DNA of 64,000 nt from Leptolinea tardivitalis (GTDB lineage: Bacteria > Chloroflexota > Anaerolineae > Anaerolineales > Anaerolineaceae), in the NCBI RefSeq assembly GCF_001050275.1, contig NZ_BBYA01000008.1, positions 558,001 to 622,000 of the forward strand. The letters run 5' to 3'. Made by a program: the position numbers and the translations under genes. Shown piece after piece: positions 3,847-41,987 of the stretch (the first letter of the stretch is position 1; every line of letters starts with the position of its first letter). The notes beneath the pieces are model-generated. The model was not told the DNA's origin. It worked only from the letters and a program-made list of their open reading frames with translations, and searched no databases.

Positions 3847-5065
3847 ACAACTGATGAAATCCAATGGAATTGCAGCCATATTAATTACGGGTGCAGCAGA
3901 CCACAACCCGGCTATGACGTATTTTACCGGTCATGTACATGTATCTCATGGGGACCTGGTTATTAAACCCGGAGAAAAACCCATTCTCTTCCATGATCCA
4001 ATGGAAAGGGAAGAAGCTGCCAAAACCGGATGCGTATTGAAGTCATACCTTAACCATCCGTACGCCGAATTGGTCAAAGAAACGAATGGTGATAAATCAA
4101 AGATGGATGCGCGAAAATTCGCCCATGTCCTGGAAGATTGTGGTGTCACATCTGGAAAAGTGGTTTTATATGGGCAGAGCGATGCAGGTAAGGCTTATTC
4201 GGCGATTAAAGGAGTTATTGAATATTTGCCAGACGTTGAATTTCAGGCTGATTGGGATGAGAACCTGCTTTACAAAGCCATGACAACCAAAGATGAAAAT
4301 GAATTGAACCAGATCAGAGATATGGGTCGGGTTACTACCGATGTTGTTGGAAGAGTGGCTGATTTCCTATCTCAACAAAAATCAAAGGGTAATCAGTTGG
4401 TCAAAAAGTCGGGAGAACCGGTGACAATTGGCGAAGTTAAGAATATGATCAACCTCTGGCTGGCCGAAGGTGGTGCTGAAAACCCGGAAGCCACAATTTT
4501 TTCACTGGGGCGTGATGCCGGAATTCCCCATTCAACGGGAACAAATTCTGAAGGATTACGCCTGGGAGAGACAATCGTTTTCGATATTTTCCCCTGTCAA
4601 TTTGGAGGCGGTTTTTTCTATGATTTCACCAGAACCTGGTGTCTGGGGTACGCACCCGATAATGTAGTAAAACTTTATGATGATGTAAAAAAAGTATATG
4701 ATACTGTTGTTTCGGAACTCAAACCGAATACACTATGCAATTCCTATCAAAAAAGGACCTGTGAACTATATGAGAATATGGGGCATCCAACCATGCGTAC
4801 CCATAAAAATACCGAGGTGGGATACAACCATTCCATAGGTCATGGTGTCGGATTACGTATTCATGAAAAACCCTGGTTTGGTGATAAGGCCGATGAAACC
4901 GATGTTTTGAAACCTGGTTCGGTTTTCACTATTGAACCCGGTTTGTATTATCCGGATAAAGGTATGGGCGTCAGAATAGAAGACACCTACTGTGTGAATC
5001 ATAAAAATCAGATTGAGTTGATGGCCGAATACCCGTATGATCTTGTGCTCCCTATTCGATCTTGA
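3830..5065 (+). CDS. M24 family peptidase (Xaa-Pro aminopeptidase type)
   Basis: The protein is a probable cytoplasmic metallopeptidase that removes N-terminal residues next to proline. The C-terminal pita-bread domain shows the usual ligand pattern: D in VFDIFP, D in YDFTRTW, H in GHGVGL, E in TIEPGLYYP and E in VRIEDT. The N-terminal creatinase-like domain occupies about residues 1-165. I place the start at ATG 3830 (411 aa), inside the selA 3' end. An upstream in-frame ATG at 3740 would add 30 residues that merely read through selA in another frame. Substrate is not determinable, and creatinase or prolidase relatives remain possible. Confidence 0.85.
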   Translation: MKNELEQLMKSNGIAAILITGAADHNPAMTYFTGHVHVSHGDLVIKPGEKPILFHDPMEREEAAKTGCVLKSYLNHPYAELVKETNGDKSKMDARKFAHVLEDCGVTSGKVVLYGQSDAGKAYSAIKGVIEYLPDVEFQADWDENLLYKAMTTKDENELNQIRDMGRVTTDVVGRVADFLSQQKSKGNQLVKKSGEPVTIGEVKNMINLWLAEGGAENPEATIFSLGRDAGIPHSTGTNSEGLRLGETIVFDIFPCQFGGGFFYDFTRTWCLGYAPDNVVKLYDDVKKVYDTVVSELKPNTLCNSYQKRTCELYENMGHPTMRTHKNTEVGYNHSIGHGVGLRIHEKPWFGDKADETDVLKPGSVFTIEPGLYYPDKGMGVRIEDTYCVNHKNQIELMAEYPYDLVLPIRS

Positions 5066-5082
5066 ATTTATAATGGAACAAT

Positions 5083-6111
5083 ATGACAGAAATTAAAACG
5101 GCAAGAATACTTGGAATCGAATCGTCCTGCGATGAAACCGCTGCTGCGGTAATTGAAAATGGGAACAATCTGTTAGCCAGTTCAGTTGCTACACAGATTG
5201 AACTGCATAAAAAATTTGGCGGTGTTTTTCCCGAAGTCGCTTCAAGGCAGCATACGTTGAGTATCTACCCCATTATTGAAGAAACCCTGCTGAAAGCACA
5301 TCTGAGTTGGGATGATATTGATGCCATTGCGGCTACCCGCGGCCCCGGATTAGCTGGTTCTCTGGTGGTAGGATTTAACGCGGCCAAGGGAATTGCTCTG
5401 GCTCGAAACCTTCCATTGATAGGGGTAAATCATCTCGAAGGGCATATTTATTCCGCCTGGGTGAAACCGGAAATTTCTGACCGGTTTACACCTCCAGAAT
5501 TTCCGGTGATGGCTTTGCTGGTTTCCGGTGGTCACACTGAATTGAATTTGATGGAAGGTCATCTGAACTACCGTCGTTTGGGAGCTACTCTCGATGATGC
5601 CGCAGGTGAAGCTTTCGATAAGGTTGCCCGCCTGCTCGGATTGCCTTATCCGGGCGGGCCATCCATCCAGAAGGCTGCAGAGACTGGCAATCCAACGGCA
5701 TTCAATTTCCCGAGGGCCAGGTTGGAAGGTGGCTGGGATTTTTCTTTCAGTGGTTTGAAAACAGCTGTTTTGCGCACAATCAAACATATGGAAGAAGACG
5801 GTAAAGATATTCCCGTTGCTGATATGGCCGCCAGTTTTCAAGAGGCGGTAGTAGATGTTTTACTTACAAAGACAATGGCAGCGGCACGTGAATACAAGGT
5901 AAAGGAAATTGTTGTTGCAGGCGGAGTTTCCGCCAATAAGGCGCTGCGTTCGGCTTTTACAGGACAGGGAGAATTTCCCGTTCACATACCCCCGCTTTAC
6001 CTTTGCACCGATAATGCAGCCATGATTGCCTCAGCCGGATATTACCGGTTTGTTCACGGCCATATTGATTCTCTGGATATGGACGTTTTACCAAATTGGC
6101 CGTTAAGCTGA
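5083..6111 (+). CDS. tsaD: tRNA N6-threonylcarbamoyladenosine transferase TsaD
   Basis: TsaD transfers the threonylcarbamoyl group to A37 of ANN-decoding tRNAs, with TsaB and TsaE as partners. The 342-residue length is typical. Visible marks are the ASKHA opening [13 protein letters not shown], the metal-binding H117 and H121 in NHLEGHIYS, the VSGGHTEL phosphate loop, the [12 protein letters not shown] motif and the late aspartate in CTDNAAMIA. It begins 17 bp after the peptidase gene and probably shares its transcript. No key residue is missing. Confidence 0.97.
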
Positions 6112-6639: not shown

Positions 6640-8121
6640 TTACGGTGCCTCTGATTGAATTTGACTGGCAGCATCTGAACACTCACAAGCTTCAACAATT
6701 CGGCTATATTTTGTTAGTGTACCCTGGTATGGTACCTTTCCATTTTTTGCCACCCAACCTTCAATATCAAAAGGAATGGGACCATCTGCCGGAATCCATT
6801 CCCCGTTATATTTTCGGGCGATGTGAATATGTGTTCCGGTTGCATGACCACCTTCACAAGAAGGTCTTCCGATGCGGTCGCCAGCTTTTACTCTGACGCC
6901 TGCTTTTATTTGATCCGAGGAAGCCAGGTGAAGATAAAAAATAACCCATCCAGTACGCTCATCACCATCGCCATCAAGATCCAACACGGCTATAGCCGGT
7001 TCTGATCTTGAAATGATGCCATCGGCCATAGCCACAACAATTTCTGACGTTTCAGAGCATCCTCCAACTACAGCCGGAGGGGCAAAATCAATGGCAGCCA
7101 ATGGAGCATCTTCACCCCAGGCAGAGTGCGGTCCACCGGTATATGCCCAGGATTTGCCTCCTAGAAAAGGAAACCTTAATGGAGGTTGTTTTAAGCTACC
7201 GGGAATAAAGTTTGTATCACCAGCCCATGGGTCTCCAAACATTTTCTTGTATGTAAGGTAGAGGCCTTCGGGGCTGATGGATTTTTTATACTCGTTTTGT
7301 GGCAAAACTCGGGCAAAATAATACTGAATAGCCACTGAACCGGCATTTTGCCAGGGATCAGGACGTTCCAGCTGCCCATCTGACAGATCAAATATTTTTA
7401 ATTTGCCAATTCGCCAGTCATAGTATCCATTGCATAAATAATTCACTGCCCAACTGAGCTGCAGATAAAGTCCTTTGTGTGCAGTATCTTTGAATCCGAG
7501 AGGATAATTTTCAATATCAACATCTGTTTTTGAACCAGAAAGGGCACCCGTCTGGTACTCAATAATTGCCAGGATCAACCTGGGACTTACACTATAATTT
7601 TGTGCCAGTAGATTTACCAATTCGCCGCCACGCCGGTTAGCTCCAGAAGCATAGGTAGTGTAGTTTTTTAACCATCCCGGTTGTTCGTTAACGTATGCCA
7701 CCGGATCAAACCCAATTTGTGCTGGCCCGTAAACAAATTCACTATCAGGAATGATTTGGAATGGAGTTCCCCACAATGACTGGTAGTAAATAGGAATTTT
7801 CATAGGGAAACCCGGCGGCATGGTCGATGCGTCATTGGGGATGATGGGGTTGGCTTCATGAATTTCTTTTATGGTGGTATTGAAATGAGAAGCCAGGCCG
7901 GGAAGTGTGTCGCCCGATCGTGCTGTGTAATCAATCAATTGCCCGGGGGTAAAAGCCTGACGTTGTGGAAGGGGAGTTGCCGTAGCCTCCCCCTCTTCTA
8001 CTTCATTTCCATCAGAGGGTGGTAGAGCTTCTTCTTCTGCAAGAGGCGGGGTAACACAGGCAGTAATCTGGAATAGCAAAAAAAATGCTGCCATCCAATG
8101 TGATAATTTCATTCGATCCAT
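6640..8121 (-). CDS. LysM/M23A-type metallopeptidase lipoprotein (copy 3 of the tandem set)
   Basis: A lipoprotein signal ends at FQITAC with C22. An acidic Pro/Thr linker is followed by a LysM domain (about 62-112), a conserved region of about 200 residues with no assigned family, and a C-terminal M23 peptidase. Zinc-site candidates are H in GGPHSAWG, D thirteen residues later in AAIDFAPP, and the last H of TGTHIH; CEGG precedes the HxH. The H-to-D spacing matches LasA/beta-lytic (M23A) enzymes as I recall them. The predicted role is cell-wall cleavage at the outer face of the membrane. It follows its paralogue by 7 bp and is last in the run. Confidence 0.85.
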   Translation of the reverse strand: MDRMKLSHWMAAFFLLFQITACVTPPLAEEEALPPSDGNEVEEGEATATPLPQRQAFTPGQLIDYTARSGDTLPGLASHFNTTIKEIHEANPIIPNDASTMPPGFPMKIPIYYQSLWGTPFQIIPDSEFVYGPAQIGFDPVAYVNEQPGWLKNYTTYASGANRRGGELVNLLAQNYSVSPRLILAIIEYQTGALSGSKTDVDIENYPLGFKDTAHKGLYLQLSWAVNYLCNGYYDWRIGKLKIFDLSDGQLERPDPWQNAGSVAIQYYFARVLPQNEYKKSISPEGLYLTYKKMFGDPWAGDTNFIPGSLKQPPLRFPFLGGKSWAYTGGPHSAWGEDAPLAAIDFAPPAVVGGCSETSEIVVAMADGIISRSEPAIAVLDLDGDGDERTGWVIFYLHLASSDQIKAGVRVKAGDRIGRPSCEGGHATGTHIHIARKYNGEWIPADGPIPFDIEGWVAKNGKVPYQGTLTKYSRIVEACECSDAASQIQSEAP

Positions 8122-8128
8122 TTTTTGG

Positions 8129-9937
8129 TTATTTTTTAGGGCGGTTGGTTAGTGTATACATTGTTCCACTGGTATTTGCCTCAGCGACCATGCCGTCTTT
8201 AGTCATTTCACCTAGATACGGCTGATTTCCAGCATGGGCCTTCCATCCGCTTAATACAAATGGCATAGGGCTATCGGCCAATATCCACTCGCCATTATAT
8301 TTTCTGGCAATATGGACATGTGTACCGGTTGCCTGGCCGCCTTCACAGGATGGATGGCCTATGCGATCATCTTGATTTAACCAGGTACCCACAGGAACCC
8401 GGTCTTTCGTGGCGATGTGGAGATAAAGAATAGCCCAACCAGTCTGTTCAAAACCATCACCATCTAAATCTTCTATTACCACACCATTGGCAGAGCGTAC
8501 TACCAGACCGGGGGCAGATGCAGTGACCCATTCAATTGACTCTGCACAACCGTGGAAGTTGCTGGGAGGGGCAAAATCAAGGGCAGCCAGTGCACCATCA
8601 GGTCCCCAGGCGGAATGCGGTCCGCCGCTAAAACTCCAACTTTGACCAGGTTTAAAAGGCAGTTCAAGCACGGGTTGTTTCAGGTCTGTTGGATAAAGTG
8701 GTTCGTATTTTTGGGCGCGCAGCCAGGGATTCCCAAACATGCGTTCATGCAGTTCAGACAGGTTTCCAGGAGAATAAAGAGATGCTCCCCACTCGTCTTG
8801 ATTGGCTATCTGGGAGAACAAATATTGGACAGCTACAGTTCCAGCGTTCAACTCTGGCGCCAGTCTCATGTTGGATCCATCGGGGAATTTCAAGTTGGTG
8901 ATCAAACCAGCCCTCCACCCATAATATCCGATAGAAAATTGTTGCACAGCCCAGCTCAGTTGATGATACAGGTGCTGATACATCATTGGTTTTAGTGTAA
9001 TCGGATATTCCTGTTCCAATGTGGAGGGATTTTTATTGGTTACCCAATGGCTGCGGTATTCCAATAGACTTAATAAAATTCTCGGGTTAATGGAATTTTC
9101 AATAGCCACACGTTGGATAACCTGGGCACCAGTATGCCAGCCGCTGGAAAGATATTCTTTATACGTGCTTAAGTACCCGCCATTTTGATTTACAAAATCT
9201 TCAATATTTAAATCAAGGGCGGAAGGTGAATAAACTACTTCACTATCGGGCATTAATATTCCACCCGGGCCTGTTTTATCCAATTGTTTGGGGATCACCA
9301 ATAATTGGTTTGGATTTAATAGATCTTTTTCAGGAATGTCTTGTGGAGATGTGATACTGTCTGCTGTAACACCAAACCGGACAGCCAATGCCGGAAGGGT
9401 ATCTCCTGCCTGAGAATAATACAGGATCATTTTCTGATTCTTATTATCGAAAGATCCCATAGGGGGGATTGTTGGAGAAATCAGAGGTGTTCGTGTAACA
9501 GAAGGGAATGCTGATGTTGGGGCTGTTGTTGAGGCGGGTGGAAAAGGCGTAGCTGTTGTAAGTTCTGTGGGAATTTCACTTGGGATGTTGGTATGAGTGG
9601 GTGCAATTGACTGAGTGTCTGCCGGTATTTCCGGTTTCTGAGTATGAACGGGAATTTCCTCCAGTGTTTTTGAAGGCAACGAAACCAGAGGTGTTGGCGT
9701 AGATTTATGCGAAGGAGAATGAAGGCCATCCGCTCCCGTTGTTTTTCCGGGGTTTCCCTGTACTTGAGCTGATCGCGTGCTGGCGAAAATATTTGTCTGT
9801 GCTGTAGCTGTTAAATCTACAGGACTTGAATAGGCTGGGGCACATGCGGAAAGGATTAGACACAGGGAAACAACCAGTGCAGCGAATCGATTACCTCTTG
9901 ATCTGGTTCTCTGCCTGGCGTCCGTTAATGGCTTCAA
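8129..9937 (-). CDS. LysM/M23A-type metallopeptidase lipoprotein (copy 2)
   Basis: This protein has the same architecture as its two neighbours, with a longer Ser/Thr/Pro-rich linker of roughly 110 residues before the LysM domain. The lipobox is LSAC. The open frame extends upstream to an ATG at 10048, but that would overlap the preceding gene by 158 bp and put about 70 residues before the lipid cysteine. I prefer the TTG at 9937, which gives a 602-residue protein with a basic n-region and lipid C32. The peptidase keeps GGPHSAWG, ALDFAPP, CEGG and TGTHVH, so the zinc site looks intact. Start confidence is moderate; family confidence is high. Confidence 0.8.
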   Translation of the reverse strand: MKPLTDARQRTRSRGNRFAALVVSLCLILSACAPAYSSPVDLTATAQTNIFASTRSAQVQGNPGKTTGADGLHSPSHKSTPTPLVSLPSKTLEEIPVHTQKPEIPADTQSIAPTHTNIPSEIPTELTTATPFPPASTTAPTSAFPSVTRTPLISPTIPPMGSFDNKNQKMILYYSQAGDTLPALAVRFGVTADSITSPQDIPEKDLLNPNQLLVIPKQLDKTGPGGILMPDSEVVYSPSALDLNIEDFVNQNGGYLSTYKEYLSSGWHTGAQVIQRVAIENSINPRILLSLLEYRSHWVTNKNPSTLEQEYPITLKPMMYQHLYHQLSWAVQQFSIGYYGWRAGLITNLKFPDGSNMRLAPELNAGTVAVQYLFSQIANQDEWGASLYSPGNLSELHERMFGNPWLRAQKYEPLYPTDLKQPVLELPFKPGQSWSFSGGPHSAWGPDGALAALDFAPPSNFHGCAESIEWVTASAPGLVVRSANGVVIEDLDGDGFEQTGWAILYLHIATKDRVPVGTWLNQDDRIGHPSCEGGQATGTHVHIARKYNGEWILADSPMPFVLSGWKAHAGNQPYLGEMTKDGMVAEANTSGTMYTLTNRPKK

Positions 9938-11405
9938 TACTCTTATTGTCACGGGTAAGTTCACCGTCGTATTCCGTTCCCTGGCCTGAAGATTTCCAGC
10001 CATCCAAGTTGAAGGGAATTGTCCCATCCGCTGCAATCCACGTGCCATTATACCTTCTGGCGAAATGTAAATGTGTTCCAGTAGAAACGCCGCCCTCGCA
10101 GGATGGATGCCCTATGTGATCTCCTGCTTTTACTACAGTGCCTCGCTTTACACGGTCACGAGATTCAATATGCATGTAAAGAAGTGACCAACCAGTCTGT
10201 TCTTTTCCATCATTATCCAGATCTTCTATAACAGCACCGTTATCTGCGCGGATAATGGTGCCGTCGGCGGCAGCAACCACCCAATCGTCAGATGAGTTGC
10301 AGCCCAGCATATCACCCGGTGGGGCAAAGTCCAAAGCTCCCCAGGCGGCACCATCGCCCCAGGCAGCATGCGGCCCTCCAGTAAAAGACCATTCGACATC
10401 TGGTTCAAACGGAAGTTGAAGTTTAGGTTGTCGCAATCCCCTGGGAAGAAGCGGCTCCATTCCAAGATCAAATGGATATTGAAAAATGAACTGGTATTGG
10501 GCAATCAGTCCATGCGCTGTGATGGCATTTTCCCAGGCCGGGTTGGCCAGCATTTTACTGAAGAAATATTGAACTCCAGCAGTGCCGGCATTTATGGTTG
10601 GGTTTGGAGTAATCACACTCCCATCTGCAAGAATGAAGTTGGAAAGGGCATTCGCCTGCCACAGATAAAAACCCTTGTTCAAGTTATTTGCCGCAAAACT
10701 CAATTGCCGGTATAGACCTTTATAATTGTCATCTTCAAAGCCTAATGGGAAAGTAACTTGATCTGCTGCCGGACGCGGATTGGTAATCCAACCGCTCATG
10801 TATTCCATTAAACACAGAAGAAGCCTGGGATTGACAGAGTATTCTCTGGCAATTTTGTTAACAATTTCTACCCCTGCTAACTGAACACCATCTACTTCTT
10901 CGGAATAATTTGTCAGGTAACCCTGCCGGCCTTCCATGAAAGTAGCCACACTGAAATCAACTACGGTTGGACCGTAGACCAGTTCAGAATCAGGAATAAT
11001 CTTAAATCCTGGCGCCTGTCCAACAGGTTTGGCCGGTGGAATATCAATTTCCTGACCTATACTCAGCATATTTTCATCGAGAATATCATTTTCTTCGATC
11101 AGGTCTTCAAGGGAAACGCCATGATCACGGGCGATTTTTCCGTAGGTATCATTTGCCTGGGCATAATACTTGACAGGATCTGAACGAAGAGTCGGTAATG
11201 TATGCGGAGCATCGGGCGTAGGGGTAGGAGCAGGTTCACCGGGCTTTCGAACAGGATTACGAGCGGCCTGCGTCGCCAGGACTGATACGGTGGCCTGGAT
11301 CTTTTCATCATCCGTCATTTCTGGAAGGATCGCATTTCGAACGCAGGCTAATGATGCTCCTGCCAGGATCATTATTGATACAGCAATACGTTGACTATGA
11401 CGCAT
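9891..11405 (-). CDS. LysM/M23A-type metallopeptidase lipoprotein (copy 1)
   Basis: The signal peptide ends in GASLAC (lipid C21). A TPTPTP linker is followed by a LysM domain (about 78-125), the shared middle region with the helix NPRLLLCLMEYMSGW, and the M23 domain. Zinc-site motifs are GGPHAAWG, GALDFAPP, CEGG and TGTHLHF. The protein is 504 residues long. It begins 4 bp after the HIT gene, and its end overlaps the next paralogue by about 47 bp. The motif pattern points to an active wall endopeptidase anchored in the membrane. Confidence 0.85.
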   Translation of the reverse strand: MRHSQRIAVSIMILAGASLACVRNAILPEMTDDEKIQATVSVLATQAARNPVRKPGEPAPTPTPDAPHTLPTLRSDPVKYYAQANDTYGKIARDHGVSLEDLIEENDILDENMLSIGQEIDIPPAKPVGQAPGFKIIPDSELVYGPTVVDFSVATFMEGRQGYLTNYSEEVDGVQLAGVEIVNKIAREYSVNPRLLLCLMEYMSGWITNPRPAADQVTFPLGFEDDNYKGLYRQLSFAANNLNKGFYLWQANALSNFILADGSVITPNPTINAGTAGVQYFFSKMLANPAWENAITAHGLIAQYQFIFQYPFDLGMEPLLPRGLRQPKLQLPFEPDVEWSFTGGPHAAWGDGAAWGALDFAPPGDMLGCNSSDDWVVAAADGTIIRADNGAVIEDLDNDGKEQTGWSLLYMHIESRDRVKRGTVVKAGDHIGHPSCEGGVSTGTHLHFARRYNGTWIAADGTIPFNLDGWKSSGQGTEYDGELTRDNKSIEAINGRQAENQIKR

Positions 11406-11409
11406 GAGC

Positions 11410-11757
11410 TCATCCTCCCATCAGGGGCATGGCTTTACCTCCCAGCAGGTGAACATGCAGATGGTGAACCGATTGCCCGGCATTCGGACCGGTATTAATC
11501 ACCAACCGGTAACCATCTTCAGATAATCCTTTGTCATAGGCTAACTGACGGGCGGTTAATATCAAGCGGCTGATTGTCAGTTGATATTCATCTGACAATG
11601 AATTGATTGAATCTAAGTGTTTATTTGGAATAACCAAAATGTGAACCGGAGCTTTTGGGAATCTGTCATTAAAGGCAGTGACCAAATCATCCTGATAAAG
11701 AAGTTCTGTCGGTTGACGTCCTGCAATGATTTCACAAAAGATGCATGGTGAGGTCAT
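11410..11757 (-). CDS. HIT family nucleotide hydrolase
   Basis: HIT proteins of this size hydrolyse adenosine phosphoramidates or related nucleotides. The 115-residue protein ends with the HIT triad H99-L-H101-V-H103-LL near the C-terminus and has a C5-x2-C8 pair that, with downstream histidines, often binds zinc in the HinT/PKCI branch. The C-terminus is short after the triad, ending in KAMPLMGG. It lies 18 bp after the deacetylase-like gene and 4 bp before the LysM set, so it is probably co-transcribed although its function seems unrelated to wall turnover. Confidence 0.92.
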   Translation of the reverse strand: MTSPCIFCEIIAGRQPTELLYQDDLVTAFNDRFPKAPVHILVIPNKHLDSINSLSDEYQLTISRLILTARQLAYDKGLSEDGYRLVINTGPNAGQSVHHLHVHLLGGKAMPLMGG

Positions 11758-11775: not shown

Positions 11776-12981
11776 TTATTGAGCGGCCAATGTAGGTATT
11801 TCACCTGTTTTTGCTTTACACACAATATCGTAATAGGCCAATTCACTTGCTTTGGATTGTTCAGCCGCCGCTGCTGCTTCTTTTCCGGTAAGACGAACTT
11901 CATCCAAACGGTAATAGGCATCAGTATCCCAGAAACGGGGAAGGGTCATCATCGGATCACCCGCCGGTCCCTCAGGTGCATAACCGGGACGTTGAAGGTC
12001 AACTTCATCTGCCTGGGGAATCCAGTTATACATGACTGGACTACGAGGATTGGTAGTGAAACCTGCTTTATACCCAGCTTCACGGGCTATTTCTGCTCCA
12101 CGTTTGGAAAATCCACCTCCTGGCCAGATGTAGGCAATTGGAGTAACCCCAATATCGCGTTGCATGCTTTCTTTGGACCCTACAATCTCACTTTTAATAT
12201 ATTCATCGGTTGAATTATTACCTATAGGTATATTATGAACAACGCCATGCGCCTGATAGTCAACATAACCGGCAGCTACCAGATTGCGTTGATCCTGGAT
12301 TAAGTCCTGTGTATTGTCCTTAAAACTGATCCATGCATTGATTACCGGCCAACCCCATTTGTCGTAATAAGGTTTAAAGTTTTGATCAAAATATTGTGCA
12401 TAGTGTCGGTCGTCTACAATCAATAGAACGGAACGGTTTGGGATTTTTGCATTGTCGTACATGAAATCGACGAACTGTTTCATGTTAATTGCCTGAAATC
12501 CCAGTTCATTCAACGATTTCATCAATATTTTGAAATTTGTTGAGGTTATATCGTTTTCTTTAGCTGCCGTCTCTTGAGCAATGCCATGGAACATTATCGG
12601 CATCACAATAGTTCCTGGTGCACTTTTGTTTGGATCCCAACGATTTTTCAAATAGGTACAGGTATCACTAATATAAGTCCGTGGAATATCCACGGGTTTC
12701 AGGAATTGTGATCGATATACTTCAGGCAATGGGGGCGGTGTGATATTAGGATCAACAGTAGGGACGGGTGTTTCAGTTGGAGGAGCCGGAGTGGCTGTTG
12801 GAGCTGGAACACCATAGGTCGCCGTTAGAAGGGCATCTTGAAATTGTTTGGTGAGATCGATTTCAGGCTGAGCTGATACCGTGTTAAACGAACTGCCGCA
12901 AGCGGAAAGGAGCATCATTCCTGGAAGGACGAAACTCCAGATTATCCGATTGCGGCGATTAAAAGAATGTTGTGTGATCAT
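11776..12981 (-). CDS. Polysaccharide-deacetylase-like lipoprotein
   Basis: A lipoprotein signal (lipid C28 in LLSACGSS) is followed by a Thr/Pro-rich linker and a NodB-like domain. The segment LLIVDDRHYAQYF resembles motif 1 and AHGVVHN resembles the H-x3-H zinc motif, so de-N-acetylation of a surface glycan is plausible. Motif 1 is usually TFDD; the V-DD form makes this a divergent member. Position ahead of three wall peptidases supports a cell-wall role. The start codon lies inside a 13-bp inverted repeat that could affect translation. Confidence 0.75.
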   Translation of the reverse strand: MITQHSFNRRNRIIWSFVLPGMMLLSACGSSFNTVSAQPEIDLTKQFQDALLTATYGVPAPTATPAPPTETPVPTVDPNITPPPLPEVYRSQFLKPVDIPRTYISDTCTYLKNRWDPNKSAPGTIVMPIMFHGIAQETAAKENDITSTNFKILMKSLNELGFQAINMKQFVDFMYDNAKIPNRSVLLIVDDRHYAQYFDQNFKPYYDKWGWPVINAWISFKDNTQDLIQDQRNLVAAGYVDYQAHGVVHNIPIGNNSTDEYIKSEIVGSKESMQRDIGVTPIAYIWPGGGFSKRGAEIAREAGYKAGFTTNPRSPVMYNWIPQADEVDLQRPGYAPEGPAGDPMMTLPRFWDTDAYYRLDEVRLTGKEAAAAAEQSKASELAYYDIVCKAKTGEIPTLAAQ

Positions 12982-13033: not shown

Positions 13034-14128
13034 CTACGCCTGTTCAGTCTGCTCACCGCGGATGAAAGCTTCTACCATTTCGCGGCAAACACTGTCGCGA
13101 AATTGTTTCGGAGGAGTCTTCATGAAATAGGAAGAAGGTCCAATTACCGGGCCAGACATACCGCGGTCAAGGGCGATCTTGGCGCAGCGAACAGCATCGA
13201 TGACGACACCGGCAGAGTTCGGAGAATCCCAGACTTCCAGTTTGGTTTCCAGATTCAAGGGAACTTCACCAAAAGTGGTACCTTCCATGCGGATATAGCA
13301 CCACTTGCGGTCTGTCAGCCAGGGGACATAATCACTCGGACCTACATGGATGGCATCCGCAGGAAGCGGGGAGGGCAGCTGGCTTTGAACGGAACCGGTT
13401 TTGGAGATTTTCTTTGATTCAAGGCGTTCGCGTTCGAGCATGTTCATAAAATCGGTATTGCCACCGAAGTTGAGTTGGTATGTGCGTTCAAGTTTGACGC
13501 CGCGGTCAACAAACAGGCTGGTGAGGGTACGATGCACGATGGTGGCACCCACCTGACTCTTGATATCATCACCGATGATCGGAAGCCCGCGTTGTTTAAA
13601 CCGTTCACCCCAGTATTCAGAACTGGCTATGAATACGGGAATACAGTTGACCATTGCACAGCCGGCATCCAGGATCTGTTCGGCATACCATTTTGTGGCC
13701 ATTTCTGATCCGACGGGCAGATAACTAACAACAACATCCGTCTTGGTATCTTTCAGGATTTTGACAATATCCGCGGTGGGGCCAGGGGCTTTTGTCAAAA
13801 TTTGAGACAGATACTTGCCAAGTCCATCGTGGGTCATGCCGCGATACACGGGCACGTTCAAATTGGGGACATCAGAGAATTTGAACGTATTGTTGGGATA
13901 GGCAAAAATGGCTTCCGAGAGGTCTTTGCCTACTTTAGTATCGACTACATCAAAAGCAGCAGTGAATTCAATATCGCTGATATGGTAGCCGCCAAGATTG
14001 ACATGCATCAACCCTGGAACACGTTCGGTTTCTTTAACGTTGCGGTAGAACTGCACACCCTGTACAAAGGATGATGCGCAGTTACCGACACCAATGATGG
14101 CGACACGTACTTTTTTACTGGTTGTCAT
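13034..14128 (-). CDS. ino1: Inositol-3-phosphate synthase (actinobacterial type)
   Basis: The enzyme makes 1L-myo-inositol-1-phosphate from glucose-6-phosphate with NAD, the first step to inositol lipids and related solutes. The nucleotide-binding loop [18 protein letters not shown] opens the protein and [17 protein letters not shown] matches the active-site region of the short bacterial form. I choose ATG 14128 (364 aa) because AAGGAG lies 9 nt upstream; the earlier ATG at 14149 would place that ribosome site inside the coding region. It is divergent from a TetR gene and heads the minus-strand run toward the wall enzymes. Confidence 0.93.
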
Positions 14129-14226
14129 ACGATTAAGCTCCTTATTCATTTAGAAGTACCTGAAGATGTTGTGTCTTTAAAATTATAGTCTTCATAAGAA
14201 AATTACGTCAAAAAAAGAGCCATTTA

Positions 14227-30705: not shown

Positions 30706-30720
30706 ATGGTTGGAATTATT

Positions 30721-31806
30721 ATGACGAATAAAATCAGTCGAAGAGATTTCTTGAAATTTTCTGTTGCAGGTTTTGGTCTTGTGGCAATCAAACCCCGGCT
30801 GGATTGGCTGCAACCTGTGCAAGAGATCCCTCAAGGGGAAAACCTGGGACGAATATGTGTGGGTTCAGTAAATTTGCGAATAAGGCCGTCTGCTGATGCG
30901 CAATCTGTCGGGAAGTTGTATCAGGATCAACTGGTTCAATGGAACCGAACAGTCGTTGGAGAACTGCCCACTGGATTAATGAACAGAACCTGGGTGGAAA
31001 CTCCAAATGGCTATCTGTTCGCTGGAAGTGTTCAACCAGTGAAAAATAATCCCAACCAACCGGTTTCCACTTTGCCATCCAATGAAAAAGAAAAAGGTAT
31101 GTGGGTGGAAGTCACTGTCCCTATTGTCGACCTGTCATTGGTCAATACTGTAGCTGTGGGGAATTGGATTAATGTTGTCCAATACCCACGGCTGTACTAC
31201 AGCCAGGTAATCTGGGTGGATGATATCCGGACAACTTCTGAGGGCAAAGTCCAATATCGAGTAAATGAGAAATATGGAAACCCTGGTGATATTTTCTGGG
31301 CGGCAGCCGAAGCGTTCCGTCCAATCACAGCAGACGAATTATCGCCGATCAATCCGGATGTTTCTGACAAACGGATCGAGGTCAGTGTAGCTGAGCAAAC
31401 CCTGTCTTGTTTTGAAGGCAAAAAGGAAGTGTATTTCTGTCGTGTTTCCACTGGTGCAAAATATGATGCCGATGGAAAGTTAGTGGACAACTGGATGACT
31501 CCACCGGGACCGCATCCGATCTGGCGGAAATTATTATCCATCCATATGGCGGGTGGAGCCACCGGTAATGGTTGGGATACTCCCGGTATTGCCTGGACAA
31601 GCCTTTTTTCTGGCGAAGGCGTAGCCATTCATTCCACTTTCTGGCATAACAACTATGGAATGCCGGTATCGCATGGATGCGTAAATGCCTCACCGGAAGA
31701 CTCAAAATGGATTTTCCGTTGGACTACTCCAACAGTATCATATTATCCCGGTGATTTAACGGTTTCTATGCCGGGTGGAACAATTGTCAATGTAACTGAT
31801 GGATAA
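30721..31806 (+). CDS. L,D-transpeptidase with Tat signal
   Basis: The YkuD-type enzyme forms 3-3 cross-links in peptidoglycan. The N-terminus SRRDFLKF is a twin-arginine signal, so export is by Tat. A variant SH3-like region follows (about 40-95), and the catalytic domain ends with HSTFWHN and SHGCVNAS, the catalytic Cys being about residue 320. I choose ATG 30721 over the one at 30706, which only extends a Tat n-region. It directly follows hutH and precedes ccdA. Confidence 0.88.
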   Translation: MTNKISRRDFLKFSVAGFGLVAIKPRLDWLQPVQEIPQGENLGRICVGSVNLRIRPSADAQSVGKLYQDQLVQWNRTVVGELPTGLMNRTWVETPNGYLFAGSVQPVKNNPNQPVSTLPSNEKEKGMWVEVTVPIVDLSLVNTVAVGNWINVVQYPRLYYSQVIWVDDIRTTSEGKVQYRVNEKYGNPGDIFWAAAEAFRPITADELSPINPDVSDKRIEVSVAEQTLSCFEGKKEVYFCRVSTGAKYDADGKLVDNWMTPPGPHPIWRKLLSIHMAGGATGNGWDTPGIAWTSLFSGEGVAIHSTFWHNNYGMPVSHGCVNASPEDSKWIFRWTTPTVSYYPGDLTVSMPGGTIVNVTDG

Positions 31807-36742: not shown

Positions 36743-38269
36743 ATGAAGAACAGATACCGCTCTTTTTTCATAGCCGCCCTTCTCGTGGTGTCTGCTTTAC
36801 CGGATATCATCGGTTGTATCCGTTCAGTCTCAGAACTTTCATATAGCGGACTGGTTTTCAACCCGATTGATGGGTATTCTTATCTGGCAAAAATGCAGAT
36901 TGGCAAATCGGGTGAATGGTTGTTCACTCTGCCATTTACGGCGAATCCTGGCGAGGGAAGGTTATTATTTCCATTCTATATCGCATCAGGGCATATTTTC
37001 GGCTGGTTGGGTATTCCCTTATCCGTGGGATTTGTCGTACTGAGATTGTTATGTTTTGGATTGCTTATCCTTTCTTTGATTCGATTGTCAGAGAAGGTGT
37101 TCAATGATAATTTTTCTCTCATTTTTCTTGTCCTCACGGCAGGCGGTGGGCTTGGATGGTTGTTATTGCCAACAGGCAATTTCGGTGCTGATTTCTGGGT
37201 GGCTGAAGCTTTTCCATTTCTATCCGGTTTAGCCAACCCTCATTTTCCGCTTGCATTATGTCTGATGGTCTTCACAATACTTCTTTTTTCTGATTCTAAT
37301 CAAGCCGCGAAGTATCCAGGCATAATGTTCTGTGGTTTTTTCCTATCAATACTATCCCCGTTTGGATTTTTCGTTAGTTGCGGTGTGTTGTCAATCAGCT
37401 GGTTATGGGAAAGAATAAATGGCCGCCAATCAGTCATTTGGCCTTTGTTAATCTTTCTGTTCTCAGGAATACCTTACGCAGCCTACCAATACTGGGCGGT
37501 AAATTCAACCCCTGAATTTGCTGCCTGGACCGCGCAGAACCAGACTCCTTCTCCAGCAGTCTGGGATGTCGCCCTGACGTTTTCTCCCTGGATTGTATTA
37601 ATTGTTTTAGGATGGCGGGGAATCTGGGCTCAAAACGAAAATCCAATCATCAGAAAATTAATTATCTGGATGGTTGTGGGATTGGTTCTGACGGTTATCC
37701 CTTTCAATTTACAGCGAAGATTCCTCATCGGTTTGTATATTCCTATTGCTTGCCTTGGATTTCTTGGATTGGACAGGGCAGCCAGTACTATCAAAATACA
37801 GGCAAGAAAACTGGCTGTAATTTGCACGGCTCTTTCATTAATTACGCCTTTTTTATTAGTTGTCATGACGTCCAGCGTCATAGCCTCACATAACCCACTT
37901 TATTATTTTCAACCTGGAGAAGTATCCGCCATCCAATGGTTATCAAAACAAGATGGGGGTAGAGATCTGGTACTGGCTGACGGACAAACAGGCAGTCTCA
38001 TTCCAGCTATCAGCCGGCTGCGGGTTTTATATGGACATCCTTTTGAAACGATCGATGCAGAAAATAAAAAAGACCAAGTAGAGGATTTCTTTTCGGGGAA
38101 AATGACTCGGGATGAAGAAGAAAAATACTTGAAGGAGAACTCTATCAAGTGGATTTTTTATGGTTCCAGGGAACAAAATCTTGGAAAACCCGATATCCTG
38201 AAGGACAAGAATCCTATAAAACAATTTGAAAACGTATCAATTTTCTCTGTAACGGAGTTAGTCCGATGA
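36743..38269 (+). CDS. GT-C-like multi-helix membrane protein A (copy 1)
   Basis: The 508-residue protein has about eleven hydrophobic segments and a soluble C-terminal domain of about 120 residues. The loop after helix 1 contains PIDGYSYLAKMQIG, like the acidic first loop in GT-C glycosyltransferases, and the end resembles the VSAIQWLSKQ...WIFYGSREQNLG pattern of such proteins. The paralogue at 40379 keeps DGxSYxAKM, LxxGGGLGWxxxP and DFFSGxxxxxE. It has no DxD motif that I can be sure of. The substrate is unknown; lipid-linked sugar transfer is inference. Confidence 0.7.
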   Translation: MKNRYRSFFIAALLVVSALPDIIGCIRSVSELSYSGLVFNPIDGYSYLAKMQIGKSGEWLFTLPFTANPGEGRLLFPFYIASGHIFGWLGIPLSVGFVVLRLLCFGLLILSLIRLSEKVFNDNFSLIFLVLTAGGGLGWLLLPTGNFGADFWVAEAFPFLSGLANPHFPLALCLMVFTILLFSDSNQAAKYPGIMFCGFFLSILSPFGFFVSCGVLSISWLWERINGRQSVIWPLLIFLFSGIPYAAYQYWAVNSTPEFAAWTAQNQTPSPAVWDVALTFSPWIVLIVLGWRGIWAQNENPIIRKLIIWMVVGLVLTVIPFNLQRRFLIGLYIPIACLGFLGLDRAASTIKIQARKLAVICTALSLITPFLLVVMTSSVIASHNPLYYFQPGEVSAIQWLSKQDGGRDLVLADGQTGSLIPAISRLRVLYGHPFETIDAENKKDQVEDFFSGKMTRDEEEKYLKENSIKWIFYGSREQNLGKPDILKDKNPIKQFENVSIFSVTELVR

Positions 38270-40386
38270 AAATTTGGCGATGGAAGTTTTTTGCACTTCT
38301 CCTGCCGGCTGTTCCAATTTTGCTCGCATGGAATCAATTTATTGTTCCATCAGGAACACATGTTTCCGATATTCTGATTTCCCATTACCCCAATTTATTG
38401 TTAATTCAAAGGTCTCTGGCATCAGGTGGTGGGTTTCCGTTATGGTCACCATTGATTCTTAGTGGTTATCCGCTTGACGCCAATCCACTATCAACACTAT
38501 GGTACCCTCCGGCATGGATAAGTCTATTATTCTCTCTTCCCCTGGGAATAAATCTCGTTATGGCGTTACATATCATTATAGGGGTAGCCGGGTACTGGCA
38601 ATTACTTCGGAGATTGAACCTTTCAACAGGTATCACTTTTTTGGGCAGTATCCTATTTGGTTTTTTACCAGCCGGTTATGCCCATATCATTGCCGGACAT
38701 TTCACATGGATCTGTGCGGCTGCCTGGTTCCCCTGGTTGGCGGCATTTTCAATTCAAAAAGCCAGATCAAAATGGGAAAGGATTTCCCTTCCGGCATTTT
38801 GTTTCGGGTTGATGATGTTGGCAGATTTGAGGTTTTCTGCCTATGCCGGCGCCTTCTGGATAATTCTATTGGCAGCAAGAATGTTTATCAATACACCAAA
38901 CCATTCGAGAAGAGACCGGCTAATTCCTATGATTCGTGCTGGTGGAATAGTAGTGCTTGCTGCAGGGATGAGCGCCATTGTGTGGTTGCCGTTATTGGAA
39001 TACACAGGTGCAAGTACACGTGTTCTGATGGGCAATGACGATATTTTCTATCTATCCTTACCTCCCGTTCAACTGACAGGACTGGTTGTACCAGGTCATC
39101 CAACTTCCATGGAGTGGATTTTTTACCCGGGATCAGTCTGCCTTTTACTCGGGATGATTGCATATTCTTTTATCAAAGAAAAGAGAGACCTATGGGTGTG
39201 GACAGGTTTATCTGTGCTTTTTCTCCTGTGGTCTTTTGGTGATGCGATCCCGGTTAATCGTTGGCTGGTTGGACTACCCGGACTGTCATTATTGCGTGTA
39301 CCTGCCCGCGGACTGTACTTCTTCAATTTTGCCCTACTTACTGGTGCCATGATTTCTCTTGATCATCTTATAGAGCATAATCCTGAAAAAGCTGTTTTCC
39401 TCAGGTTATCAACTCTTTTCTTTACTATTTTGGTGATCTTATTACAAGTGTTTATTATTGTTACCAATCCTGAGAAGAACGGCTTTTTAATCTGGCATAT
39501 GATTTTCTGGATAATCGCAGCCAGTTTAATCTTGTTATATTCTTACCGGAAGATAACAGCAAAGTTGTTTCTACTTGGAGTGTTTACAGTGGCGATTTCA
39601 GATGCTGCCTTTGTGTGCATCCGCCTCATGGACCGGCTGCCTGTCACAGAAGCTCTCTCGTTAGGCCAGGCAGAAGCCAGATATGTAATTTCAGAAGGAA
39701 AAAACACTGGGCGGATTTTCTCACCTTCCTATTCCATTCCTCAGCAAACTGCCGCATTTTGGGGATTGGAAATAGCCGATGGAATAGATCCTTTGCAACT
39801 TCGGACTTATTCAAACTTTATCCATGACTCCAATGTGATTGTTGACGATAATTATTCTGTTACTCTCCCGCCGTTTAAATCAGGTGATCCTTCGATAGAT
39901 AATATTGACATAAAACCTGATGCCAGAGCGTTGGGACTTCTCAATATACATTACCTTGTTTCATCATTTCCCATTAAACAGGATGGATGGTCATTATCCA
40001 AACAATTGGATCATGCCTATATTTATAAAAACCCGATGGCACGAGGTTGGGCATGGCTTGAGAATGGAGATGATGGAGAATCATATTTATCCATTGGAAA
40101 TGACCAGATTTCCAGGCAGAATAACAGAATCACCATACAAACTACAGGCCCGGGCAAACTGGTTGCCTCTGAGATTAATTATCCTGGATGGCAGGTGTGG
40201 GTAGATGGCAAATTAGCCCAGATTCAACCAGCTTATACGATATTACGTTCTGTATCATTAGAAGGTGGGCCACATAAGGTTGAATTTGTATATTATCCGG
40301 TTACCCTGATTATCGGAGCCATTGTAAGTCTTGTTTCCATTTTGATCATTTTTTTGCTTTCAAAAAAGACTATCGCCTATGTTTGA
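38266..40386 (+). CDS. YfhO-like membrane protein B (copy 1)
   Basis: The 706-residue protein has about 12 to 14 helices. The first loop GTHVSDILISHYPNLLLI and the C-terminal beta-sandwich segment INYPGWQVWVDGKLAQ (with the YPGWxxxVDGxxx motif) match YfhO/GtrC-type proteins. Bacillus YfhO adds a sugar to lipoteichoic acid, so a lipid-linked sugar transfer at the outer membrane face is the working idea. The start overlaps the preceding gene as ATGA and its end overlaps the next by 8 bp. Confidence 0.8.
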   Translation: MKIWRWKFFALLLPAVPILLAWNQFIVPSGTHVSDILISHYPNLLLIQRSLASGGGFPLWSPLILSGYPLDANPLSTLWYPPAWISLLFSLPLGINLVMALHIIIGVAGYWQLLRRLNLSTGITFLGSILFGFLPAGYAHIIAGHFTWICAAAWFPWLAAFSIQKARSKWERISLPAFCFGLMMLADLRFSAYAGAFWIILLAARMFINTPNHSRRDRLIPMIRAGGIVVLAAGMSAIVWLPLLEYTGASTRVLMGNDDIFYLSLPPVQLTGLVVPGHPTSMEWIFYPGSVCLLLGMIAYSFIKEKRDLWVWTGLSVLFLLWSFGDAIPVNRWLVGLPGLSLLRVPARGLYFFNFALLTGAMISLDHLIEHNPEKAVFLRLSTLFFTILVILLQVFIIVTNPEKNGFLIWHMIFWIIAASLILLYSYRKITAKLFLLGVFTVAISDAAFVCIRLMDRLPVTEALSLGQAEARYVISEGKNTGRIFSPSYSIPQQTAAFWGLEIADGIDPLQLRTYSNFIHDSNVIVDDNYSVTLPPFKSGDPSIDNIDIKPDARALGLLNIHYLVSSFPIKQDGWSLSKQLDHAYIYKNPMARGWAWLENGDDGESYLSIGNDQISRQNNRITIQTTGPGKLVASEINYPGWQVWVDGKLAQIQPAYTILRSVSLEGGPHKVEFVYYPVTLIIGAIVSLVSILIIFLLSKKTIAYV

Positions 40387-41977
40387 AAAAGAAAACCGTC
40401 GCTGGTTAATTTCTGCTTCGATCATTATCCTATTTTTTACTTCTGTCCCCTATCTCATGGGATATTTCAAACAGGGAACAGAATGGCACTTCACAGGATT
40501 CCTTTTCGGTGTAGAAGATGGCAACTCTTATATTGCTAAAATGCTGTCTGGTACGTATGGAAGCTGGTTATTTAAATCGCCATATACTGCCATACCTCAA
40601 AAGGGTGTCCTGGCGTTCTTACCGTATATTATTATGGGAAAATTAGCCTTTCCACCGGAGGTTCATGACCAGCTTGTAGCACTTTTTCAGATTTTCCGGT
40701 GGGTTGCGGGAGGATTACTGATTTTTTCTGTATATTTATTCGCCGGCCTCTTTAGTGCGAATGAAAACCAGAAACGTTGGGCTTCTCTGGTAATTCTTCT
40801 TGGCGGCGGTCTCGGCTGGATCGGTTGGATGATGCTGCCGGAAACAGGAGCCTGGAGACTTCCACTTGAAGTATATTCCCCTGAGGCATTCGGCTTCCTG
40901 TCAATTCTTGGATTACCACATCTCGCGGCAGCGCGCGCTTTTCTTTTATTCGGTTTATTCTTTTATATAAAGGAAGAACATAGGTCTTCAGTAGTAGGCG
41001 ATTCCGTCAAAGGAGGTTTATGTTGGTTGACGGCTGGTTTTTTCCAACCTCTGGCTATTGTTGTTGGTTATGGAATACTGGCATGGCATATTTTGTTGGT
41101 TTTTTTGATCAATAGGAATAATCGCTTAAAAGAATTCGAGAAATACTTAAAAAAAGCCATAATTCTTGGTTCTATTTCAGTACCGTGGGTGATCTACAAT
41201 TTCCTTTTCTTCCAATCAGATGATTACTTAAGAGCATGGTACACACAGAATGTGATCCAATCACCGCCAATTTGGGATTACCTGTGGTCATTTGGACTAT
41301 TTCTCGGAGCCTCAATCCCTGCTGTTATCTGGATAATTCGTAATAAAAGAGAACAACAATCAATTCTTCTTGCATGGGTACTCAGCGCCTGTTCTCTGGC
41401 ATATTTCCCCTATAATGTTCAACGACGGTTTATTGATGGCATCTGGATTGCATTGGTCTTGTTGGTGTTTCTCTCTTATGAACTAGTGCAAAAAAACGTA
41501 TGGAAGAACGTGATAAAAATTCTTGTCGGTTCGACAGGTGCGGCTACACTGTTGGTTTTAATGGTCATCCTGAAGGGTGTATGGACACTTCAAATGCCAG
41601 TCTACCGGCCGGCGGGTGAAGTACAGTTTTTCAACACCATCATTGACAGAATTAAACCGGGCAGCATCGTGTTATGCAGTTATGAAACAGCCAACACATT
41701 ACCTGCCTGGGATCCCGTTTTTGTACTTGCCGGTCATGGACCAGAAAGTGCGAACCTGTCCACAGTATTACCAGAAGTGAAAGATTTCTTTTCGGGTCAA
41801 AAGGACATTGAGTGGCAAAAGAATTTTATTAAACAATATTCCATCAACTTCATAATTTCTGGTCCACTCGAACAAAAACTTGGTGTTTGGGAACAGAAGT
41901 ACGCCCGCCATTACACGCAAGTAGTGGAAGTAAACGGGTATTCAGTTTATCGATCGGAACCTATAAATGGTGAGTAA
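40379..41977 (+). CDS. GT-C-like multi-helix membrane protein A' (copy 2)
   Basis: This 532-residue paralogue of the gene at 36743 has the same order of about eleven helices and a soluble tail. Shared marks are EDGNSYIAKMLSG, LGGGLGWIGW, NVQRRFIDGIW, and KDFFSGQKD. Sequence similarity between the copies is moderate, so the duplication is not recent. It is placed between the two YfhO-like genes, with an 8-bp overlap upstream. Function is inferred as for copy 1. Confidence 0.72.
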   Translation: MFEKENRRWLISASIIILFFTSVPYLMGYFKQGTEWHFTGFLFGVEDGNSYIAKMLSGTYGSWLFKSPYTAIPQKGVLAFLPYIIMGKLAFPPEVHDQLVALFQIFRWVAGGLLIFSVYLFAGLFSANENQKRWASLVILLGGGLGWIGWMMLPETGAWRLPLEVYSPEAFGFLSILGLPHLAAARAFLLFGLFFYIKEEHRSSVVGDSVKGGLCWLTAGFFQPLAIVVGYGILAWHILLVFLINRNNRLKEFEKYLKKAIILGSISVPWVIYNFLFFQSDDYLRAWYTQNVIQSPPIWDYLWSFGLFLGASIPAVIWIIRNKREQQSILLAWVLSACSLAYFPYNVQRRFIDGIWIALVLLVFLSYELVQKNVWKNVIKILVGSTGAATLLVLMVILKGVWTLQMPVYRPAGEVQFFNTIIDRIKPGSIVLCSYETANTLPAWDPVFVLAGHGPESANLSTVLPEVKDFFSGQKDIEWQKNFIKQYSINFIISGPLEQKLGVWEQKYARHYTQVVEVNGYSVYRSEPINGE

Positions 41978-41987
41978 GGGAAAAGAA

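Follow-up and report, generated by a model that had tools for sequence, protein, structure and literature searches.

The stretch of DNA analysed here is a 64,000-nucleotide window from Leptolinea tardivitalis (assembly GCF_001050275.1, contig NZ_BBYA01000008.1, positions 558,001 to 622,000), and at window positions 6640–11405 it carries a cassette of three adjacent minus-strand genes for putative LysM- and M23-bearing lipoproteins. We numbered their products 1, 2 and 3 in the order of transcription (genes at 9891, 8129 and 6640; Table 1). All three have a common layout, with a lipoprotein-type signal, a Thr/Pro-rich linker, one LysM domain, a region of about 200 residues without a Pfam name and an M23 domain. 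This shared order had been described in an initial annotation of the locus, and it is borne out by Pfam and by the lipoboxes. LysM was above the Pfam cut-off in P0001, P0002 and P0003; Peptidase_M23 passed its cut-off in P0001 and P0003 and fell short of it in P0002 (18.8 versus 28.7 bits). Read by eye, the lipoboxes are ITAC (gene at 6640), LSAC (8129) and SLAC (9891, with Ser at −3 off the consensus). An NCBIfam scan of the three proteins matched LysM and M23 models only far below their cut-offs, and a literature search found no paper title about these proteins.

In full-length alignment P0001 shows 40 and 39% identity to the other two proteins, and because the same layout also recurs across the order, the similarity of the three genes is not a matter of chance. 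If the middle gene began at its first ATG (10048), it would share 158 bases with the gene upstream. A later start at TTG 9937 (signal peptide KPLTDARQ...) is plausible and perhaps the real one.

Table 1. Features of the cassette and its upstream neighbours (window coordinates)
Feature	Positions	Strand	Description
Gene 1 (position 1, P0003)	9891..11405	minus	504 residues; lipobox SLAC/C21, Thr/Pro linker, LysM 83-123, pro-domain-like region ~129-325, M23A ~326-490
Gene 2 (position 2, P0002)	8129..10048	minus	639 residues; longest linker, Cys69 to LysM = 138 residues
Gene 3 (position 3, P0001)	6640..8121	minus	493 residues; shortest linker, Cys22 to LysM = 40 residues
Pro-domain-like region of gene 1 and first M23 residues	10392..11021	minus	predicted lysozyme-like fold
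Pro-domain-like region of gene 2	8639..9277	minus	
Pro-domain-like region of gene 3	7150..7776	minus	E188, Q190, N259 (P0001 numbering)
M23A catalytic domain and C-terminal subdomain of gene 1	9936..10430 (approximate ends)	minus	
M23A catalytic domain of gene 3	6697..7188 (approximate ends)	minus	H332, D345, H398, H431, H433; acidic loop D381-D383-D385; C355, C422
HIT-family protein (named by eye)	11410..11757	minus	match upstream in 15/49 complete triples; outside conserved core
Polysaccharide-deacetylase lipoprotein, PgaB-like region, Thr/Pro linker	11776..12981	minus	match upstream in 16/49 complete triples; outside conserved core

The catalytic domain

The His-to-Asp distance of 13 residues (GGPH(S/A)AWG...DFAPP) and the end CEGGxxTGTHxH, on which the initial annotation had based a kinship with the LasA/beta-lytic (M23A) peptidases, were each found in all three genes. 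A passage of PMC9662197 describes LasA as H(x)12D, and this spacing is present in 107 of 112 aligned members of the family, the three window proteins included. When the proteins were compared with PDB sequences, M23A structures came first among the matches to the M23 part of each of them. P0003 matched Blp (2.2e-10), pseudoalterin (3e-9) and LasA (3.1e-8), followed by LytU (1.1e-4), lysostaphin (4.8e-4) and LytM. With P0002 the same three led in some order (4.6e-10 to 6.7e-5; LytU, 0.05), and with P0001 they led narrowly (4e-6 to 4.1e-5; LytU, 4.9e-4). The outcome that would have spoken against the kinship, a best match to ordinary M23B enzymes, thus did not occur.

An AlphaFold2 model of P0003 residues 62–504, built from the 112 aligned members, had a predicted local distance difference test (pLDDT) value of 96.2 and a predicted template modelling score (pTM) of 0.93. 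LasA, pseudoalterin and Blp took the first three ranks in a Foldseek search with this model. The tool VIA re-aligns Foldseek's own candidates, so that further families may exist outside its lists; it gave Z-scores of 20.2 for LasA, 20.0 for pseudoalterin and 19.2 for Blp over 160–162 residues at 2.2–2.4 Å, and then, after a clear gap, 12.9 for DipM. For this position-1 protein the alignments to the M23A structures cover model residues 263/264–443, which include the C-terminal subdomain. The PDB sequence ranks, the predicted fold and the H(x)12D spacing together support the assignment of the three proteins as M23A-type peptidases, by sequence for all three and by predicted fold for one.

The zinc ligands and both catalytic His residues were intact in 199 of the 207 rows of the family alignment; six rows carry substitutions and two are cut off there. 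NlpD has a lipoprotein–LysM–M23 layout, and the proteins might be imagined as non-catalytic LytM-factor-like regulators of the NlpD/EnvC type that activate other hydrolases. This likeness is joined by a fourth paralogue in the same genome (G000:C14:178207-179547; loci L082 and L130), which is near full-length and keeps its zinc ligands but carries Asn instead of the first HxH histidine. The zinc site of the cassette is not degenerate, however, and since all five active-site residues are retained in the three window genes as well as in those 199 rows, we consider a regulatory role very improbable. The first His of HxH is also replaced by Asn in members at L042, L057 and L064 and by Ser at L061, which points to a repeated origin of possible pseudo-peptidases; both His residues are lost in the position-2 protein of L067.

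The window family differs from the LasA-type sequences compared in having a DxDxDGxExTGW loop where those have a short turn, a feature that the initial annotation had not recognised. A loop of the form DxDxD...(T/S)GW was present in 111 of 112 members, and its three Asp residues are nearly invariant among 152 position-labelled rows. By a count on the alignments, it is about six residues longer than the corresponding turn in the secreted relatives and in LasA, Blp and pseudoalterin. The pattern was found in six of eight members from other orders of the class (L143–L150) and is not universal further out. It resembles calcium loops, and we take it to be a candidate calcium site. Loop 2, according to PMC9783410, helps to form one side of the active groove, and the strand order would put the acidic loop there.

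The cysteines differ as well. LasA has a pair made of a strand Cys and the CEGG Cys, which is a feature of known structures and not a definition of the subfamily. In the window family the CEGG Cys is conserved and the strand partner is absent, while another invariant Cys follows DFAPP, so that the disulfide may be rewired relative to LasA.

The region between LysM and M23

Pfam found nothing in the middle region of the three window proteins, and the region had been left unassigned by the initial annotation. A profile of the region (search space 10,000) matched the N-terminal parts of secreted-looking Chloroflexota proteins at L122 and L123 with E-values of 3.4e-19 and 4e-18, and the comparison of the family with secreted Chloroflexota pro-regions gave 2.6e-21. 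The pro-regions of L122 and L123 continue into LasA-type M23 domains, and when the L122 protein (P0005) was searched against the PDB, only M23A structures matched strongly, namely Blp, LasA and pseudoalterin at 1.3e-35 (Blp) to 2.3e-29. By hhalign, whose E-values refer to single comparisons, the L122/L123 pro-regions matched those of Salinivibrio and Photobacterium (Vibrionaceae) at 92% with an E-value of 6.4e-7. From residue 193 on, the Salinivibrio protein aligns with mature LasA (2.8e-72), and its first 190 or so residues are therefore signal and propeptide. Following this chain of matches, from the family through secreted Chloroflexota proteins to Vibrionaceae, the middle region is identified by way of intermediates as an M23A pro-domain.

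The literature consulted presents the M23A pro-domain solely as a propeptide that serves folding or latency in LasA-type enzymes. According to PMC8715609, the propeptide of beta-lytic protease is needed for secretory production and is removed by host proteases, and none of the three enzymes LasA, pseudoalterin and beta-lytic protease is self-maturing. The window proteins could, then, be zymogens for release, in which a protease cuts the pro/M23 junction, a soluble M23A leaves to lyse other bacteria and the anchor is only a store. LasA and beta-lytic protease are indeed described as lysing other bacteria, and the retained pro-domain, the dependence on propeptide and foreign maturation just cited and the secreted-looking M23A relatives within the phylum would all be in keeping with release. 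Yet the junction is nearly invariant (Q in 204/207 rows, P in 204/207) and the two domains lie 1–12 residues apart by profile ends, which is not what a variable exposed linker would look like; the LysM and the position-specific linkers described below also suggest a fixed role. We regard release as unlikely, and the removal of the pro-domain appears doubtful because the junction is short and nearly invariant.

Several relatives are arranged differently. Two proteins from Chloroflexota outside the class (L120:1029-2933 and L121:880-2733) place the same pro-domain before an M23 domain of the ordinary kind, whose spacing reads by eye as HxxxD; that of L120 matched M23 in Pfam at 1.8e-24 and has a Golvesin_C end. 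Judged from these two, the pro-domain can occur without an M23A catalytic domain. L122, L123 and L124 encode very long secreted-looking proteins in which the pro-domain and a LasA-type M23 are followed by long tails, with OmpL47-type and Ig-like repeats in L123. At L133:2391-2945 in Salinivibrio, a gene for an M4 metallopeptidase, which is a candidate for a partner in maturation, comes after the LasA-like M23 gene.

The pro-domain modelled alone had a pLDDT of 95.4. No Foldseek match of this model to the PDB reached an E-value of 0.001 (best, 0.094). Judged by title, about 47 of the top 50 rows were lysozyme-fold peptidoglycan or chitin hydrolases; 2vcv is not one and 8ej5 and 6o43 are unclear. 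The best VIA rows were LytB (Z 8.3), MltF (7.8) and AtlE (7.5), values at which, as the tool warns, a match can reflect a common arrangement. In a viral structure library the best E-value was 0.034, and 36 of the first 50 rows were named: 20 as transglycosylase, GEWL or glucosaminidase, five as lysin, endolysin, lytic protein or peptidoglycan hydrolase and 11 as something else.

Aligned by hhalign with 30 SLT domains taken from the order's genomes, the pro-domain scored 32.7 (probability 39.7%, over 32 columns only). None of 150 shuffles scored as high (top, 21.1), and the reversed alignment (14.4), a LysM slice (19.2) and an M23 slice (14.3) also remained below. GH73 was not above its null (1/150 shuffles as high), the secreted and Vibrionaceae pro-regions had no significant match to SLT, and the pro-domain profile had no match to PDB sequences at E ≤ 10. 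Pfam searches of the 112 members placed 17 families in the middle region, each in one to four members and the best at 0.028 (DUF7548); one SLT match (0.17) and one Glucosaminidase match (0.037) do not stand out among so many similarly weak families.

In the 32-column alignment the catalytic Glu column of SLT falls on Q190 of P0001, where the 207 rows have Q in 124, R in 27, E in 19 and H in 12. A conserved Glu (E188, 186/207) lies two residues before that column. We considered E188 as a lysozyme-type catalytic Glu and rejected it, the SLT alignment placing the catalytic column on Q190 instead. An active lysozyme-like glycosidase or transglycosylase in the middle, making the proteins bifunctional wall hydrolases, would suit the lysozyme-fold titles and the conserved E188. 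The displaced Glu and the fact that no structural match is significant alone make such activity improbable. The pro-domain is probably a catalytically dead lysozyme-like fold, a hypothesis based on the predicted model and on this alignment.

Distribution, age and linkers of the triple

A scan of genome contigs, seeded with two short query motifs, so that distant relatives may occur elsewhere, gave 78 loci from the best 80 of 120 confirmed matches. Their titles name Chloroflexi or groups placed there in 77 cases and Patescibacteria in one. Fifty clusters were interior, lying at least 1500 bases from the locus ends; three genes were present in 39 of them (one with a fragment), four frames in four (two with fragments), two genes in three and one gene in four. 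The initial annotation had called the triplication unusual, a view that is not supported: among these best 80 of 120 matches, triples are the commonest arrangement, and they are old.

In a sample of 400 genomes of the phylum, with four candidates scored per genome, near-full-length matches (E ≤ 4.7e-166) were found in 10/10 genomes of the same family, its own included, and in 26/26 further genomes of its order. Matches at E < 1e-90 occurred in 11 of 19 genomes that belong to the class but to another order, and outside the class the best match (2e-36) was a secreted relative.

In a tree of 207 sequences, positions 1, 2 and 3 formed separate clades, with four label changes over 154 labelled rows (minimum, two); both extra changes came from the fragmented locus L054. 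A 66-row tree was rooted on nine members from other orders, which look untandemised in loci of 4–9 kb, one genome (G128) having a second, diverged match on another contig. Position 1 branched first and positions 2 and 3 were sisters, with Shimodaira–Hasegawa-like approximate likelihood ratio (SH-aLRT) supports of 85 for the root, 89 for position 1 and 99 for positions 2 and 3 together. The triple was apparently produced by two old tandem duplications. Fourth copies in five other genomes of the family (L135–L139) group with position 2 and the copy in the own genome with position 3. Tandem, overlapping and similar genes might have been taken for a recent local amplification of no special meaning. 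This is scarcely credible, as the copies are only about 40% identical and orthologues group by position across genera, so that both the position-labelled and the rooted tree contradict it.

Linkers were measured in 150 proteins of 50 triples (49 loci and the window), using a lipobox pattern in stop-to-stop frames that was found in 127 of the proteins. The median distance from Cys to LysM was 65 residues at position 1 (n = 40), 76 at position 2 (n = 38) and 38 at position 3 (n = 49). Position 3 was the shortest in 28/28 fully measured triples and position 2 the longest in 19/28; the window follows the same pattern, with 55 residues at position 1 and the lengths given in Table 1 for the others. 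It had been suggested earlier that linkers of different length give different reach across the wall. Because linker length is position-specific across genomes, this idea now rests on a conserved trait and has circumstantial support; that the difference affects reach is something we only infer.

Proposed role and comparison with known systems

We consider it reasonably probable that the three proteins are paralogous membrane-anchored M23A zinc endopeptidases, most likely cutting peptide cross-links of the cell's own wall at set distances from the membrane. Walls in this phylum are usually of the ornithine type (PMC3368417). The features computed here (architecture, M23A kinship, pro-domain kinship via intermediates, conserved zinc and catalytic residues, old triplication and position-specific linkers) would fit the following course. 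Each protein would be exported as a lipoprotein and anchored at its N-terminal Cys, the Thr/Pro linker would reach into the wall, and LysM would dock on glycan. The M23A pro-domain would be retained between LysM and the catalytic domain, where it would help the latter to fold and may add a glycan contact or latency. Three non-redundant copies would have arisen by two ancient tandem duplications, and because these copies have position-specific linkers, they probably work at different depths or stages; the division by depth, the own-wall substrate and any cleavage at the pro/M23 junction are presumed. The cassette is kept in all sampled genomes of one Chloroflexota order, which suggests a housekeeping role in the wall. 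The own genome has 10 M23 matches and gave no NlpC/P60 match at E ≤ 0.001, which also speaks for the proposal.

Some observations weigh against this proposal. The lipobox pattern was absent from 23 of the 150 triple proteins, and at L056 the position-2 protein (3914-5545) appears, by eye, to have an N-terminal membrane helix in place of a lipobox. The direct comparison of the family with the Vibrionaceae pro-regions is weak (hhalign 29%, 5.8e-4), although better than 100/100 column shuffles (best, 0.011). A retained pro-domain could keep the enzyme inactive, and other M23 proteins of the genome could do the same job.

A bolder extension, which we offer tentatively and think somewhat less likely true than false, is that the M23A pro-domain is a lysozyme fold without its catalytic Glu, that M23A arose from a two-headed wall hydrolase, and that Anaerolineales keep the dead glycosidase fold as a glycan reader by which three tethered endopeptidases are positioned at given depths. 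The origin of M23A propeptides would be explained, should the pro-domain prove to be a dead lysozyme fold. Two features are surprising, the conserved triple whose linkers resemble a ruler and the resemblance of the predicted pro-domain to lysozymes, and the position-specific linkers make the idea of a molecular ruler testable.

The gene neighbourhood was considered as a clue to function and set aside: matches to the HIT and deacetylase genes lie upstream only in some loci (some of the 49 complete triples have little upstream sequence), and neighbours vary in the 14 loci read. A scan of the window for promoters and terminators gave counts near those of shuffles (16 versus a mean of 15.7, and 10 versus 7.9); one promoter-like site matching at 11 of 12 positions (14211–14182, minus) lies upstream of the gene at 13034–14149. 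Elsewhere in the window, the protein at 30706–31806 has an SHGCVN motif, which we take to be as in L,D-transpeptidases, and is another likely wall enzyme. At 36743–44330 four large multi-membrane proteins in a row precede what looks, by eye, like a MoxR-type ATPase.

Among known systems, the lysozyme-fold glycosidases (LytB, AtlE, goose-type lysozyme and MltF/MltC/MltE) provide the best structural likeness to the pro-domain, which has a short SLT-like stretch around SVNPRLLLALLEYQSGW; it differs from them in that no single match is significant and the catalytic Glu column is mostly Gln or Arg. LysM–M23B proteins, among them MepM, NlpD and DipM, likewise combine LysM and M23 at the envelope, and the match to their M23 fold is lower (DipM, Z 12.9); NCBIfam models for proteins of this type matched the window proteins well under the cut-offs. 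With Blp, LasA and pseudoalterin the window proteins share the catalytic fold, the H(x)12D spacing of LasA, HxH, the CEGG-type end and the C-terminal subdomain, and with M23A enzymes also the N-terminal pro-domain, linked via intermediates. M23A enzymes figure, in the parts of the literature available, as secreted bacteriolytic or elastolytic proteases. Unlike Blp, LasA and pseudoalterin, the window proteins are predicted to be lipid-anchored, carry a linker and LysM, and occur as three tandem copies. What seems new here is an M23A that is tethered, LysM-bearing and triplicated, and whose pro-domain appears to stay in place.

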